64,000 nucleotides of DNA from contig NZ_JAFEVL010000048.1 of the NCBI RefSeq assembly GCF_016901135.1, positions 434,001 to 498,000 on the forward strand, read 5' to 3'. The position numbers and the translations under genes are program-made. Positions 14,233 to 51,233 of the stretch are shown here, in pieces (the first letter of the stretch is position 1; each line of letters starts with the position of its first letter). This stretch comes from Martinezella lusitana. GTDB lineage: Bacteria > Pseudomonadota > Alphaproteobacteria > Rhizobiales > Rhizobiaceae. The notes beneath the pieces are model-generated. The model did no database searches. It worked only from the letters and a program-made list of their open reading frames with translations, and was not told where the DNA came from.

Positions 14233-14263
14233 CAAACGGGCCGGCTTTTCGCCGGCCCGTTTG
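14233..14263 (-). terminator. Intrinsic terminator after class II DAHP synthase
   Basis: A 13-bp perfect stem, CAAACGGGCCGGC (14233-14245) with its complement at 14251-14263, has a 5-base loop and lies 24 bases beyond the stop of the minus-strand aroG-type gene. In that direction it is followed by a short T-containing tail. Confidence 0.8.
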
Positions 14264-19541: not shown

Positions 19542-19567
19542 AAAGGGCGGCCGATCGGCCGCCCTTT
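19542..19567. terminator. Bidirectional terminator between gph and L,D-transpeptidase
   Basis: A perfect 26-base palindrome (AAAGGGCGGCCG and its complement around a 2-base centre) sits between convergent genes. T-rich bases follow on both strands, so it can end both transcripts. Confidence 0.85.
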
Positions 19568-25272: not shown

Positions 25273-25297
25273 TGAAATCCAGGCAATCCGGGTCTAA

Positions 25298-25325
25298 AGA
25301 AGGCGCCGATGGCGCCTTCTTCTGT
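25298..25325 (+). terminator. Intrinsic terminator of fumA
   Basis: A 10-bp perfect stem, AGAAGGCGCC (25298-25307) with GGCGCCTTCT (25311-25320), has a 3-base loop followed by TCTGT. It lies just after the fumA stop. Confidence 0.8.
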
Positions 25326-45510: not shown

Positions 45511-45542
45511 AGGAATAGTTATCCGAATGGATAACTATTCCT
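45511..45542. promoter_or_regulatory. 32-base palindrome before the GST-ArsR-SRPBCC operon
   Basis: Arms AGGAATAGTTATCC (45511-45524) and GGATAACTATTCCT (45529-45542) are perfectly complementary around GAAT. No U-tract follows on the plus strand. It lies 20 bases after the methyltransferase stop and 78 bases before the GST start. AT-rich palindromes of this form are typical of ArsR-type operators, and an ArsR gene is in the downstream operon. A weaker repeat ACTTA-N10-TAAGT (45566-45585) lies between it and the start. Confidence 0.55.
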
Positions 45543-45620
45543 TGCAAGATGACATCTGAGCCGTTACTTAGCCATTTAGATAAGTTTCAGCTCGAACCTT
45601 GATGCAGGAAAGGTCGTCGC

Positions 45621-46313
45621 ATGTCCCTTGTTCTCTACCAGCATCCCCTTGCCTCCTTTTGCCACAAGGTGCTGATGGCGCTTTACGAGAACGGCACGCC
45701 GTTCGAAAGCCGGATCATCGACCTCGGCAATGAGGAATCGCGGGCGTCTCTGGTGCGCCTCTGGCCCATCGGCAAGTTTCCCGTGATGCGCGACGAAGCC
45801 CTCGACAGCACCATTCCCGAAACCAGCATCATCATCGAATATCTCGACCGGCATTATCCGAGTGCGACACCGCTATTGCCGCTCGATCCGACGGATGCCT
45901 TGTGCGTCCGGCTCTGGGATCGCTTCTTCGATCTCTATGTGCAGGAGCCGATGCAGAAGATCGTTGCGGACAAACGCCGACCGGATGATGCACGCGACCC
46001 TCAGAGCGTCGCCGAAGCACAAGCGCTGCTGCGCACCGCCTATGGCATGATCGAACAGCAGCTCGGCGAGAAGACCTGGATCACCGGCGATACCTTGACC
46101 ATGGCCGATTGCGCCGCAGCACCTGCTCTCTTCTACGCCGAAACGCTCGTGCCCTTCGATGAAACACAACCTCGGCTGAATGGATACTATCAACGCCTTC
46201 TCGACCGCCCGTCCTTCGCGCGCGTCCTCAAGGAAGCGATGCCCTATTTCCACTTTTATCCCTATCACGATAAACTGCCGGCACAGTTCCGCCCGGAACA
46301 ACCGCATGCTTGA
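45621..46313 (+). CDS. Glutathione S-transferase family protein
   Basis: The 230-residue protein has the thioredoxin-like N-domain (LYQHPLASFCHKVLMALYENG near 5-25, with the cis-Pro of GKFPVM near 54 and the glutathione gamma-glutamyl contact ETSIIIEYLD near 69-78) and an all-helical C-domain with LTMADCAAAPAL near 160. Ser/Cys at SFC is the likely catalytic site. Substrate is unknown. AGGAAAGG precedes the ATG. The last 8 bases overlap the ArsR gene start, so the trio is coupled. Confidence 0.88.
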   Translation: MSLVLYQHPLASFCHKVLMALYENGTPFESRIIDLGNEESRASLVRLWPIGKFPVMRDEALDSTIPETSIIIEYLDRHYPSATPLLPLDPTDALCVRLWDRFFDLYVQEPMQKIVADKRRPDDARDPQSVAEAQALLRTAYGMIEQQLGEKTWITGDTLTMADCAAAPALFYAETLVPFDETQPRLNGYYQRLLDRPSFARVLKEAMPYFHFYPYHDKLPAQFRPEQPHA

Positions 46314-46650
46314 GGAACCGCAGGCACTGGACCGGATGTTTCAGGCGCTTTCCGATCAGAGCCGGCGCGGCATGATCGACCGGCTCGGCCAGGGGCCTGC
46401 TTCCGTAACGGAATTGGCGCAGCCCTTCGCCATGGCGCTGCCAACCGTGATGAAGCATCTGCATGTGCTGGAGGCGAGCGGCCTGGTATTGTCGGAAAAA
46501 GCCGGCCGGGTGCGGACCTATCATCTTCGCAAGGAGGCGCTGGCATCGGTCGAGCGCTGGGTTGCCGAACGCAAGGCATCATGGAACAAGACTTTCGACC
46601 GTCTCGATCTTTTTCTGGCGGATGCGTCCACGGAGACAACGACCGAATGA
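46306..46650 (+). CDS. ArsR family transcriptional regulator
   Basis: The 114-residue winged-helix protein has the ArsR pattern: ALSDQSRRGMIDRLGQGPAS near 14-33 and the recognition region LAQPFAMALPTVMKHLHVLEASGLV near 37-62. It lacks the metal-binding ELCVCDL-type cysteines, so it is not a metal sensor. It belongs to the ArsR group that is co-transcribed with SRPBCC proteins. Start ATG at 46306 lies inside the GST gene end; its stop overlaps the next ATG. Confidence 0.9.
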   Translation: MLEEPQALDRMFQALSDQSRRGMIDRLGQGPASVTELAQPFAMALPTVMKHLHVLEASGLVLSEKAGRVRTYHLRKEALASVERWVAERKASWNKTFDRLDLFLADASTETTTE

Positions 46651-47123
46651 GCCTCAAATTGACGGAACATACGACGCTCACCATAGAGCGTCACTTCGCG
46701 GCACCGCTGTCACGGGTCTTCAATGCCTGGGCGATCGCCGAGCAGAAACGGCAATGGTTTGCCTGCCACGAGGATTGGGTCCCGTTGGAATTCCGGCTCG
46801 ACTTTCGCGCCGGCGGCAGTGAAAGCAGCCGCGTCGCCTCAACGGACGGCGTCGTGCACGCCTATCAGGCCCGTTACATCGATGTCGTCGAGAACGAACG
46901 CATTATCTATGCCTTCGACATGATGCTCGACGACAAGCGCATTTCCGTATCGCTGGCAACCGTCACCTTCACACCGGAGCCTGCGAGCACGAAAATGTCC
47001 TTCGTCGAACAGGTGGTTTTCCTCGACGGCTACGGCGACAACGGATCGCGGCTGATGGGCACCGAAATCGGCTTCGATCGCCTTCGGCTCTACATCGAGG
47101 GCGACGAGACCAGGCCGAACTAG
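46647..47123 (+). CDS. SRPBCC (AHSA1-like) domain protein
   Basis: The 158-residue protein has the START-like helix-grip fold of AHSA1/SRPBCC proteins: TIERHFAAPLSRVFNAWA near 12-29, a WVPLEFRLDFRAGG region near 44-58, and a C-terminal helix. These proteins bind hydrophobic ligands, and when paired with an ArsR regulator may bind the signal or a toxic compound. It begins in an ATGA overlap with the ArsR gene. Its TAG stop lies at the end of a dispersed palindromic element. Confidence 0.88.
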   Translation: MSLKLTEHTTLTIERHFAAPLSRVFNAWAIAEQKRQWFACHEDWVPLEFRLDFRAGGSESSRVASTDGVVHAYQARYIDVVENERIIYAFDMMLDDKRISVSLATVTFTPEPASTKMSFVEQVVFLDGYGDNGSRLMGTEIGFDRLRLYIEGDETRPN

Positions 47124-47215
47124 AGCGATTAAGCATTGCCTAATTGCTCCATTCCGTTGCTTTTACGCAATTCCGGACGGAAAACCGCTCTACACTTTTC
47201 CTGGAATTGCGCTAG
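47121..47215. repeat. Palindromic dispersed intergenic element (rhizobial type)
   Basis: The element contains CGCAATTCC (47166-47174) pairing with GGAATTGCG (47203-47211), and inside it GGAAAA (47179-47184) pairing with TTTTCC (47196-47201). The GGAAAACCGC and TTTTCCTGGAATTGC words are ones I associate with a very common rhizobial intergenic repeat; a genome search would settle this. Both ends carry CTAG, and the stop codons of both flanking convergent genes fall within those ends. Confidence 0.65.
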
Positions 47216-48015
47216 CTGGCGCGCGCCTCGCCGAGGATCGCGGCCAGCAGCTGCCCTTCGAGTTCGGCCAGCGCCGGATTGCCGTGACGTCGCGGATGCG
47301 GATAGGGAACGGCAAGATCGAGTACGATCCGCCCTTCGTCCAGCACCACGACGCGATCCGCCAGGTGCACGGCTTCGCTGACATCATGCGTCACGAGCAC
47401 TGCGGTAAAGCCAAGCTCACGCCAGACGCGGTTCAGCAGCTCCTGCATGCTGATGCGGGTCAGCGCATCCAGTGCGCCCAAGGGCTCATCAAGTGCAAGC
47501 ACACCGGGCTTGCTGACGAGTGCCCGGGCGAGCGCCACGCGTTGCTTCTGGCCGCCGGAAAGCCTGGACGGCCATTCGCCGGTCTTCTCCGCAAGCTGCA
47601 CTTCGGAGAGAACCGAAGCCGTTGCACCGCGCACTACATCGCGGGGTATACCCTCGCCCAGTCCGACAGCCACATTGTCCGCGACCGAAAGCCAGGGCAG
47701 CAAGCGCGGCTCCTGAAAGACGATGCGGGTATTGGGTTCCGTTTCACTCCCGCCTGCGGCCTCGAAGCGCAGATGACCTGCGCTCGGCTCGTCGAGCCCC
47801 ATCAGGATGCGCAGCAGCGTGCTCTTGCCGCACCCGCTTTTCCCGATCACGGCAAGGAACTGGCCGGCCGGGACATCAAGGTCGATGCCGCGCAGGACCC
47901 GATTGTTCCCGAAGCTCTTTTCCAGCCCCCTGATATGTATGGCGGCAGCGCCTGTGGCTTGCGGAGCGGCACTTGCGGCTTGCGGTCGAAAACGATCCGG
48001 TGCGATCACGCTCAT
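47212..48015 (-). CDS. ssuB: Aliphatic sulfonate ABC transporter ATP-binding protein
   Basis: The 267-residue ATPase powers sulfonate import with SsuA and SsuC. It shows Walker [13 protein letters not shown] near 63-74, Q-loop [12 protein letters not shown] near 105, signature [16 protein letters not shown] near 145-160 and Walker [13 protein letters not shown] near 168-179. The ATG at 48015 has GAGGAG upstream, rejecting a 26-codon extension. It follows ssuC by 10 bases and is last in the unit; its stop lies in the repeat element. Confidence 0.93.
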
Positions 48016-48025
48016 GGCACGCTCC

Positions 48026-48862
48026 TCAATTCTGATAGGCCGGGTTCCAGCGGAGCGTCCTGCGCTCGATTGTCCGTGCGACGACATCAGCAAGCTTGCC
48101 GAGGATGGCGTAGATGACCAGCGTCAGGACCACAACATCGGTCATGCCGAACTCACGGGCATTGTTGGCCATGTAGCCGATGCCCGACGATGCGGCGATC
48201 GACTCTGCGACGATCAGCGTCAGCCACATGATGCCGAGTGCAAAGCGCAGTCCGACCAGAATGGATGGCAGGGCGCCGGGAAAGATCACCTTCCTGAACA
48301 GGGTCCAGTTGCTCATGCCGTAGACCCTTCCCATCTCGACCAGACCACGATCGACATTGCGCACGCCGTGATAGGTGTTGAGATAGATCGGGAAAAGCAC
48401 GCCGAGCGCCGTCAGAAACAGCTTCGATTCCTCACCAATCCCGAACCAGAGGATGACAAGCGGCACCATGGCAAGGTGCGGAATGGTGCGCAGCATCTGC
48501 AGCGTTGTGTCGGTCAACTGTTCCGACAGACGCGATACGCCGTTGGCGATGCCGAGCAGGAAGCCGATCGAGCCGCCGACCAGCAGGCCGGCAAAGGCGC
48601 GACCGGCGCTGACGAGAATATTGTTCGGCAGCTGACCGGAAATCGTCGTCTGCCAGAAGGCGGTCACGACAGCCGCTGGTGACGGCATGATCCGTGTGGA
48701 GATCCATCCGACCGACGAGCCGAGCTGCCATGCCGCTATGACGACGATGGGCAGCAGGAAGGGCAGAAACCGCTCGAGCGAGATGGTCTGCCTTGCAGCC
48801 TTGACCGGACGAGCCCGGCTTTCGGCGCCGACGCGTATGAAGGAAATATCGAATGCCGACAT
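48026..48862 (-). CDS. ssuC: Aliphatic sulfonate ABC transporter permease
   Basis: The 278-residue inner-membrane permease has a polar N-terminus, about six helices ([21 protein letters not shown] near 34, [19 protein letters not shown] near 92) and the ATPase-contact loop [22 protein letters not shown] near 180-201. The layout matches the SsuC/TauC family. The ATG at 48862 has AAGGAG seven bases upstream. It sits between ssuD (23 bases upstream) and ssuB. Confidence 0.93.
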
Positions 48863-48885
48863 GGGGATCTCCTTGGAAGGATGGC

Positions 48886-50061
48886 TCACGAGCCGGAAAC
48901 GACTTTCAGATTGCCGCCATGGCTGCCGCCGGCAAAAATCTGCTTCGCGCCGAATTCGTTGCGGAATCCGGCTCGCTGCTCCTCGCGGTTCAATCCGAGT
49001 TCGGGGAACAAGAGCTCCGCGACGCGATAGGCTTCCTCCAGATGCGGATAACCGGAGCCGATCACCGTTTCGATGCCGAGCTCCTGATATTCACGCAGCC
49101 TTGCCGCCACCGTCTTCGGCGATCCAACCAGGGCCGTGCCGGCGCCAGCGCGCACCAGGCCAACGCCGGCCCAGAGGTTCGGCGAAACTTCGAGCTTGTC
49201 GCGACGGCCGCCATGAAGAGCCGCCATGCGCTTCTGGCCGACGGAGTCGGATTGCTTGACGAATTGCTCCTGCGCTTCGCGGATCGTCTCGTCGTCGAGC
49301 TTGGAGATCAGCCGGTCAGCCGCCGCCCATGCCTCCTCATCCGTCTCGCGGACGATGAAGTGCAGGCGAATACCGAAGCTGACCTCGCGGCCCCGCTTGG
49401 CGGCAGCGGCCCGCACCTTCTCGATCTTCTCCGCCACCAGCGCCGGCGGCTCGCCCCAGGTCAGGTATTTGTCGACGCGGCCGACAGAGAATTCGATGCC
49501 GGCATCCGAAGAGCCGCCGAAATAGAGCGGCGGGCGCGGCGACTGCACCGGCGGCAGGCCAAGTCTTGCATTGGTGGCCTTGATATACTTGCCCTCGAAC
49601 GTCGAGGATCCCTTCTCCAGCAATTCCTCCCACACATGGAAGAACTCATCGGCATGGGCATAGCGCTCGTCATGCTCCAGATGAATGCCGTCGCCCGCCA
49701 GTTCCGCCGGGCTCCCGCCCACGACGATGTTGAGCAGCACGCGACCGTTCGAAACGCGGTCGAGCGTCGAGGCGAGACGCGCGTAATAGGCTGGCGAAGC
49801 CGTACCGGGACGGATCGCGACCAGGAATTTCAGCTTCTGGGTATGCGCCGAAAGGGCGGCCGCCGTAACGAAGGACTCCTCGCAGGAGACGCCCGTCGGC
49901 AGCAGCACGCCGGAATAACCCAGCCGGTCGACCGCCTGCGCGATCTGCTGGAGATAGCCGATGTCCGGCCCACGATTAAGATCGGTCGAACCGAGATAGG
50001 TACCGTCGCCGGAGGTCGGAATGAACCACAGGAAGTCGATGGGTTTTGCGGTCGCGGTCAT
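48886..50061 (-). CDS. ssuD: FMNH2-dependent alkanesulfonate monooxygenase
   Basis: It cleaves alkanesulfonates to aldehyde and sulfite using reduced flavin, releasing sulfur during sulfate starvation. The 391-residue length and family motifs fit Ssu[17 protein letters not shown] near 10-25, the active-site Cys region [13 protein letters not shown] near 53-65, [11 protein letters not shown] near 80 and [12 protein letters not shown] near 110-121. It lies between ssuA and ssuC, but a 203-base gap from ssuA with its own upstream motif suggests a second promoter. The flavin reductase SsuE is not in the window. Confidence 0.95.
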
Positions 50062-50135
50062 GAAGTGTTCCTGCCTTCTGGATGCGCGTGGTCGGGAGCC
50101 ACTTCCCGATGCTTCGGACCGGATAGTGACATAGA

Positions 50136-50156
50136 CTATGGATTATATCGACAATG
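50136..50156 (-). promoter_or_regulatory. Shared ssu upstream motif, ssuD copy
   Basis: This 21-base site matches the copy before ssuA at 17 of 21 positions, with the core TATATCGACAA identical. Its near edge is 75 bases before the ssuD start. On the minus strand it reads TTGTCGATATAATC, which contains TATAAT, so it may be a promoter, an activator site, or both. Confidence 0.5.
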
Positions 50157-50264
50157 CAGATTTTCTATTGCCGGGCGTTCGGCGGAATATTTTTTCTCAT
50201 GCGGCCCCGTCCGCGATGTTTGAGACGCGGGCCGCATGGGGATCTGCAAGCAGGTCGTCAGTGC

Positions 50265-51233
50265 TCAGCTCGCCTTCGGCCGCCAGACGATATCAGTAAC
50301 GGTCAGCTTTTTCGGAACAATCCCGAGATTGTAGAATTCGTCGGCCAGCCCCTGCTGATAGGCGACCGCCGCATCGGTGATGGTCGAAACACTGCCAAGA
50401 TCCGAGCCGGGGCGCGTCAACGTTACCCGCGTCACGTCGGCCGGAACGCCGGTGATCTCAGACAAGGCCGTAACTGTGTCGTCGAGATTGGACTGTGCCG
50501 CCGCCCCAACCTTCGCGAGTTCGGCGATGACGTCGGTAACGACCTGCGGATTGTCCTTGGTAAAATCGCCGTTCGCCAGGAAATAGCTGAAGGAGTCGAC
50601 GATGCCGCGCGCCGTCGCAAGGATGCGGGTATCCGGATCCGCTTCGGCAATGGCAAGATAGGGATCCCAGATCGACCAGGCATCGATGGCGCCTGTCTTG
50701 AAAGCAGCGGAGGCATCCGGCGGCGCGAGATCGAGCGCCTGGACGTCGTTGACCGTCAGTCCGCCCTTGCGCAACGCCTTGACGGTGACGTTGTGGGCGC
50801 TGGAGCCGCGCTTGAAGGCAACCTTCTTCCCCTTGAGATCGGCAAGCGTCTGGATCGGCGAATCCTTGCGCACGAGAATGGCGGAGCTTTCGGGGCTGCC
50901 CGTATAAAGACCGACATAGAGCAGGTTACCATTGGCGGCCTGGGCAAAGAGCGGCGGTACATCGCCGGTGGCGCCGAAATCAAGGGCGCCCGCACCGAGC
51001 GCTTCGAGCAGCGGCGGGCCGGAGGTGAATTCCGACCATTCGACGGAGATGCCGCGACCGGAGAGCAGTTTTTCCAATGCTCCCTTACGCTTTGCGAGTG
51101 CCAGGACACCGTTCTTCTGCCAGCCGATGCGAAGGCTCGTCGCCGCAGCGGCACGCGCCGGTCGGAGAGAGGGCAACGCGAAGGCAGCTGCCGTGGCGCC
51201 GAGGAGGCCGAGTGTCTGTCTGCGCGAAATCAT
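50265..51233 (-). CDS. ssuA: Aliphatic sulfonate-binding periplasmic protein
   Basis: The 322-residue binding protein has a signal with a twin-arginine-like motif (SRRQTLGLLG, residues 3-12; cleavage after PARA near 28). The SsuA/TauA-type domain shows LRIGWQKNGVLALAKRKG split near 34-51, FGATGDVPPLFAQAA near 85-99 and the sulfonate-binding region GSSAHNVTVKAL near 143. It is first in the transcriptional order ssuA-ssuD-ssuC-ssuB. A hairpin CGATGC-TTGA-GCATCG lies in its leader at 51288-51303. Confidence 0.92.
   Translation of the reverse strand: MISRRQTLGLLGATAAAFALPSLRPARAAAATSLRIGWQKNGVLALAKRKGALEKLLSGRGISVEWSEFTSGPPLLEALGAGALDFGATGDVPPLFAQAANGNLLYVGLYTGSPESSAILVRKDSPIQTLADLKGKKVAFKRGSSAHNVTVKALRKGGLTVNDVQALDLAPPDASAAFKTGAIDAWSIWDPYLAIAEADPDTRILATARGIVDSFSYFLANGDFTKDNPQVVTDVIAELAKVGAAAQSNLDDTVTALSEITGVPADVTRVTLTRPGSDLGSVSTITDAAVAYQQGLADEFYNLGIVPKKLTVTDIVWRPKAS

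Follow-up and report, generated by a model that had tools for sequence, protein, structure and literature searches.

A predicted operator pair for the ArsR-family repressor of a GST-ArsR-SRPBCC operon in Martinezella lusitana

The locus and its gene products

The window, that is, the whole 64,000-nt stretch of DNA that was analysed, contains three overlapping genes on the plus strand, namely, a glutathione S-transferase (GST) family gene at 45621-46313, an ArsR-family repressor gene at 46306-46650, and an SRPBCC (AHSA1) gene at 46647-47123. The GST gene and arsR overlap by 8 nt, and arsR and the SRPBCC gene by 4 nt. The GST has both the N- and the C-terminal domain of its family, with Pfam GST_N_3 and GST_C_2 above cut-off (PF13417, 42.7 against 22; PF13410, 45.2 against 24.9), and no NCBIfam equivalog was reached in the profile search. 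The product of the third gene is a member of the AHSA1/SRPBCC family (PF08327, 57.7 bits against a cut-off of 22.1), with 3otl and 3put as solved relatives. Downstream of the operon and convergent with it lies a minus-strand gene set at 47212-51233, with an apparent ATPase, permease, monooxygenase, and binding protein, that on inspection by eye resembles a gene cluster for sulfonate uptake and monooxygenase activity.

The ArsR protein scores 68.3 bits with NF033788 (cut-off 55) and has the winged helix-turn-helix of the ArsR/SmtB family in both sequence and fold. Its AlphaFold2 model has a mean pLDDT of 88.7, and the helix modelled at residues 45-58 was taken as the recognition helix. Among solved structures the ArsR regulator 3f6o of Rhodococcus RHA1, determined as the protein alone, comes nearest both in sequence (E 6.6e-30) and in fold, where it ranks first. 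With the profile of the SdpR autorepressor subfamily (NF033789) the protein reached 59.8 bits against a cut-off of 100. The preliminary description had it that this ArsR is without metal-binding cysteines, and indeed the window protein has no cysteine at all, nor do 84 of the 90 distinct ArsR proteins of GST operons. A cysteine metal sensor is therefore unlikely; the metal-binding residues looked for, and not found, in the window ArsR were cysteine sites only, and the argument is against a cysteine-based metal site only.

A perfect palindrome and a second dyad upstream of the GST gene

Upstream of the operon lies site 1, AGGAATAGTTATCC-GAAT-GGATAACTATTCCT, a perfect dyad at 45511-45542 with arms of 14 bases that are 100% complementary and a centre of 4 bases. 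Its 26-bp core is 45514-45539 and its axis falls at 45526|45527. It begins 20 bases past the stop codon of a methyltransferase gene and ends 78 bases before the GST ATG (45621). The arms, the centre, and the 78-base gap to three overlapping genes are as previously described, as is the lack of a U-tract, since no T-run is found 3' of the dyad. With loops of 0-8 it is the longest perfect dyad of the window, and perfect dyads with arms of at least 14 occurred in none of six first-order Markov resamples of the window; the palindrome exceeds chance expectation. It is A+T-rich, whereas the other three perfect dyads of the window with arms of at least 11 are G+C-rich and terminator-like. These three, at 14233-14263, 19542-19567, and 25297-25321 (arms of 13, 13, and 11, respectively), are intergenic, at least two of them have A-runs 5' and T-runs 3', and they look like ordinary (bidirectional) terminators. 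No terminator-like element was called at 45511-45542.

A second, imperfect dyad, site 2, which the preliminary description lacks, lies at 45563-45588 in the GST promoter, and its axis (45575|45576) is 49 bp downstream of that of site 1. The segment 45565-45586 has two mismatches to the symmetric consensus TASTTANCC-N4-GGNTAASTA, and in the orthologous locus L010 site 2 is a near-perfect dyad. When the 7.43-Mb genome was scanned for this consensus with up to two mismatches, only site 1 and site 2 matched. The number of matches is unremarkable because a reversed control pattern also gave two in the same genome; what is remarkable is that the pair lies 49 bp apart in one promoter. That the genome holds no third site suggests that this ArsR is a local regulator. 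Both sites fit the 12-2-12-type imperfect inverted repeats near the promoter by which ArsR/SmtB family operators are recognized, and both are predicted operators that are conserved in orthologues.

The site pair follows arsR across orthologous loci

It had been suggested that the palindrome be looked for upstream of orthologous operons. It is present there as a pair of sites, and the pair tracks the presence of ArsR. A search for relatives of the ArsR at E<=1e-15 gave matches in 45 of 61 genomes, counting that of the window itself, and the GST gene stands in front of arsR in 29 of 30 fetched loci. In the 27 of these that are Rhizobium-type both sites are visible by eye upstream and site 1 is followed by TTGC or TTG; two further loci (L030 and L031) have the same two-site layout with half-sites that are GTTTCC-like.

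For a wider comparison, 80 of 365 GST homologues were kept, all on genome contigs whose titles name Rhizobium, Rhizobiaceae, or Rhizobiales, and GST matches were also gathered from 48 of 297 genomes of the order. After duplicates and short flanks were dropped, 134 of 159 upstream regions could be tested, 90 with ArsR directly after GST and 44 without. A sequence-blind test asked for two dyads 44-58 bp apart and compared each locus with 200 dinucleotide shuffles. At p<=0.01 it was positive in 42 of the 90 loci with ArsR and in 0 of the 44 without, and the best dyad pair was spaced 49 or 50 bp in 64 of the 90. Because this test misses 48 of the 90 ArsR loci, many of which are R. leguminosarum-type and have asymmetric sites, a two-site weight model was also used, trained on the 31 Rhizobium GST-ArsR loci nearest the window and run against 100 mononucleotide shuffles per locus. 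At p<=0.01 the trained model found the sites in all 43 of the remaining Rhizobium loci that have ArsR. Of the 13 Rhizobium GST loci lacking ArsR and SRPBCC it found them in one, where they are decayed, and of the 31 further GST loci that lack ArsR in none. The model fits Rhizobium half-sites only, and in the 16 loci with ArsR from other families, where the half-sites are GTTTCC-like, it found 7 and the dyad test 10.

Loci with lost or altered neighbours bear on which gene the sites belong to. The 13 Rhizobium loci have GST, and tblastn (E<=1e-6) detects neither ArsR nor SRPBCC in the 2.5-kb flank. The same methyltransferase gene precedes GST in 12 of them; the sites are below the p<=0.01 threshold in 12 of the 13. 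Most of these loci look like one clade, so they represent few independent losses. One of them, L056, has a degraded copy of the sites with a model score of 5, as against 27-95 in loci with ArsR, and such ArsR-less loci would be cases of operators decaying once the regulator was lost. Conversely, in L062 and L064 no SRPBCC gene is found in the fetched flank and ArsR is shortened to 93 residues and has its DNA-binding part intact, and here the operators are kept. In four loci of genus g26 an ArsR with Gln at residue 50 comes after the same GST; these have a single clear dyad, site 2, in which 8 of 8 arms read AAG, where almost every arm near the window has TCC, CCC, or GCC, and no clear site 1 was seen in them. 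Lastly, the arms of site 1 change together: at the 9th base 21 of 26 distinct sites have G..C, 5 have C..G, and none is mismatched, and over all positions only 10 of 2000 permutations of the arms were as good. From these cases of loss, retention, replacement in g26, and arm covariation the sites appear to be tied to ArsR and not to GST, SRPBCC, or the methyltransferase.

ArsR-first relatives and the presumed promoter of the GST operon

In many relatives arsR is the first gene and SRPBCC follows. Among 104 distinct ArsR-first loci with downstream SRPBCC, a dyad whose axis falls exactly between -1 and +1 of an in-frame ArsR start codon is present in 60 when at least 7 of 10 pairs are required, and in 35 when at least 8 are; the remaining 44 loci are below the 7-pair threshold. 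The 24 other offsets tabulated have 0-11 loci (at least 7 pairs) and 0-6 loci (at least 8 pairs). In a partly overlapping set of 82 ArsR-first loci a score of at least 8 near the start was reached in 32.9%, as against 2.3% of shuffled regions. No start-centred dyad was found at the arsR start of GST-first operons (0/11). The 65 positive loci, 60 with SRPBCC and 5 without, span 28 family codes, and 5 of the loci are outside the class. ATG is the start codon in 63 of the 65, a Shine-Dalgarno-like motif is present in only 4, and TTGAC lies 34-37 bases upstream in 28, which together points to leaderless messages. A further dyad at -47 to -51 was matched 17 times in the 65 loci, as against 0-5 times at any single offset elsewhere; this excess is modest, and we do not claim an upstream dyad near -49 as universal in ArsR-first operons. 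Many genomes have several ArsR-SRPBCC operons (loci L161-L186), and the half-sites differ between paralogues as if to keep them apart.

A start-centred operator would also encode the first residues of its own repressor (M-V-Q-Y, M-L-N-Y, or M-A-N), so that DNA specificity and the N-terminus of ArsR would evolve together.

As the ArsR-first relatives have the axis on the start codon, a -10 element and a start of transcription can be presumed for the GST operon. The start is predicted at 45576, on the axis of site 2, and the presumed -10, GTTACT at 45563-45568 on the plus strand, would lie in the left arm of site 2, where many orthologues have GATACT. The presumed -35, CTTGCA at 45541-45546 on the same strand, lies directly 3' of site 1, and TTGC is kept there in orthologues. 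A sigma-70 consensus scan called no promoter at these presumed -35 and -10 elements. The GST promoter would be a variant of the common ArsR-SRPBCC design, with the GST gene between promoter and arsR.

A residue of the recognition helix and the fourth base of the half-site

Residue 50 of ArsR, in the putative recognition helix, goes with the fourth base from the axis. In the 65 ArsR-first sites, counting both arms, Lys50 has C in 76 of 76 arms and Gln50 has G in 37 of 40; with Arg50, C is found in 6 of 8 arms. These loci were picked by symmetry and not by the bases of the rule. When one representative per 70% cluster was taken, 18 clusters had Lys with C, 15 had Gln with G, 3 with Gln were mixed, and none was reversed (Fisher 1e-9 on the 33 unmixed clusters). 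At 60% clustering 13 and 6 clusters gave p 4e-5, and at 50% clustering no contrast remains for residue 50. In the GST-first operons, counted without L140 in which the dyads were misplaced, Lys is accompanied by C in 122 of 124 arms in the training set of 31 loci, in 39 of the 44 arms from 11 loci of other families, and in 105 of 172 arms of the 43 non-training Rhizobium loci (R. leguminosarum-type and others). In the four g26 loci, which are of the Gln type, 8 of 8 site 2 arms have G. Residue 47 and the fifth base are similarly matched in ArsR-first loci (57 of 68 and 60 of 62 arms), and because Lys-type GST-first operons break this second rule we do not claim it generally. On a tree the two rules could be compared over 4 and 8 independent contrasts, of which 1 each falls on well-supported branches; these contrasts agree with the rules and are too few for significance. 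Together, these counts suggest a link between Lys or Gln at residue 50 and C or G, respectively, at the fourth base of the half-site.

Interpretation and alternative explanations

The most likely explanation, to which we give a probability of about 0.85, is that the ArsR encoded in the operon has two operators here, that the palindrome is the upstream member of this pair, and that dimers on both shut off transcription. The preliminary description had proposed that ArsR represses the operon at the palindrome; the assignment to the operon's own ArsR agrees with the orthologous site pairs, with their tracking of ArsR, and with the helix covariation, whereas a single site does not agree with the two that are found. 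This reading is strongly supported by the comparison of loci, which brings out the two sites, their spacing, their dependence on the presence of ArsR, and, in the wider family, their covariation with the recognition helix. From this we infer ArsR binding and repression as well as the promoter elements and the start site. One ArsR dimer would sit on site 1 beside the -35 and a second on site 2 over the -10 and the start, and together they would silence GST-arsR-SRPBCC until a signal releases ArsR. Steric block is the mechanism that would fit sites adjoining the presumed -35 and covering the -10 and the start, both likewise presumed. That a ligand releases ArsR is assumed by analogy with the ArsR family, and an organic compound that would be bound by SRPBCC and conjugated by GST, as the preliminary description proposed, is a reasonable candidate.

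GST genes are frequently under the control of other regulators, and the two sites could be operators of such a regulator with ArsR a mere neighbour. We consider this very unlikely: GST homologues without ArsR have the sites in 1 of 44 (trained model) or 0 of 44 loci (dyad test), the half-site changes when the neighbouring ArsR goes from Lys to Gln type, and the same dyads are found at the start of ArsR-first operons that have no GST. We see as little chance that ArsR-SRPBCC is a toxin-antitoxin module with the palindrome as its autoregulatory operator. The pair ArsR-COG3832 was listed as a candidate by Makarova et al. in 2009, who name antibiotic resistance as its most plausible function (PMC2701414), and a COG3832-ArsR pair of Stenotrophomonas was, according to PMC7650669, non-toxic in E. 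coli and in its own species; moreover, a GST as first gene would suit detoxification better. Least probable of all is that the palindrome acts at the RNA level, by ending the methyltransferase transcript or forming a stem-loop at its 3' end. It does lie close behind the methyltransferase stop, and the 130-nt RNA has a better fold than its shuffled versions (z -4.0), mostly via the palindrome hairpin. Yet it lacks the T-run, the terminator call, and the composition of the terminator-like dyads of the window, the dyads persist in families without a detected upstream methyltransferase and are lost in 12 of the 13 ArsR-less Rhizobium loci where the methyltransferase is mostly kept, and site 2 would be left unexplained. 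The data do not support a terminator or RNA element, stable as the hairpin is, nor the possibility raised earlier that the palindrome ends the methyltransferase transcript.

Relation to known systems

That ArsR-SRPBCC pairs are widespread, as stated in the preliminary description, agrees with PMC2701414, in which they are common, with up to 10 copies per genome, and in which the ArsR-COG3832 pairs and their missing metal motifs were published in 2009. The window operon has the same pairing of ArsR with COG3832 (AHSA1/SRPBCC) and likewise lacks a cysteine metal motif, and differs in that GST comes first and in that operators are proposed here. For SmtB/ArsR repressors a known arrangement is a single 12-2-12 repeat, or two of them, close to the transcription start or spanning it (PMC8790569). 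Fold (winged helix), dyad geometry, and position are alike in the window operon, whereas its ArsR is cysteine-free with no link to a metal, and half-site and partner genes are other ones. Rv2034 of Mycobacterium tuberculosis is an autorepressor. The pair Rv2034-Rv2035 is also COG3832-ArsR (PMC3968373); it has no GST and is likened to the window operon by its gene pairing. In Frankia ArsR-AHSA1 operons were noted with no known link (PMC4531530). Brucella ArsR6 (PMC8509827, available part) was considered as a relative and set aside, its membership in the SRPBCC-linked group not being established. The available parts of PMC9425974 and PMC2577659 hold nothing on the operator, and a literature search, largely of papers outside subscription, found no operator, start-codon-centred dyad, or recognition rule for SRPBCC-linked ArsR and no ligands for ArsR-SRPBCC pairs.

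From the comparison come predictions of an operator pair and of a start site, together with a suggested rule that relates a residue to a base. With a known operator a reporter becomes possible, and this would be a practical route to the ligand. For the family as a whole we think it rather probable, with less confidence than for the window operon, that ArsR-SRPBCC repressors have their operator axis between -1 and +1 of their own start, that their messages are leaderless, and that Lys or Gln at residue 50 predicts C or G at the fourth base. The Rhizobium operon would have arisen when a GST gene came between a start-centred promoter and arsR.

A minor observation concerns the axis of site 2. In L011, L132, and L135, in which arsR comes after GST, an ATG and a few codons that resemble the N-terminus of an ArsR-first protein lie on this axis. 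They may be the remnant of an arsR start or may only reflect the symmetry of the dyad.
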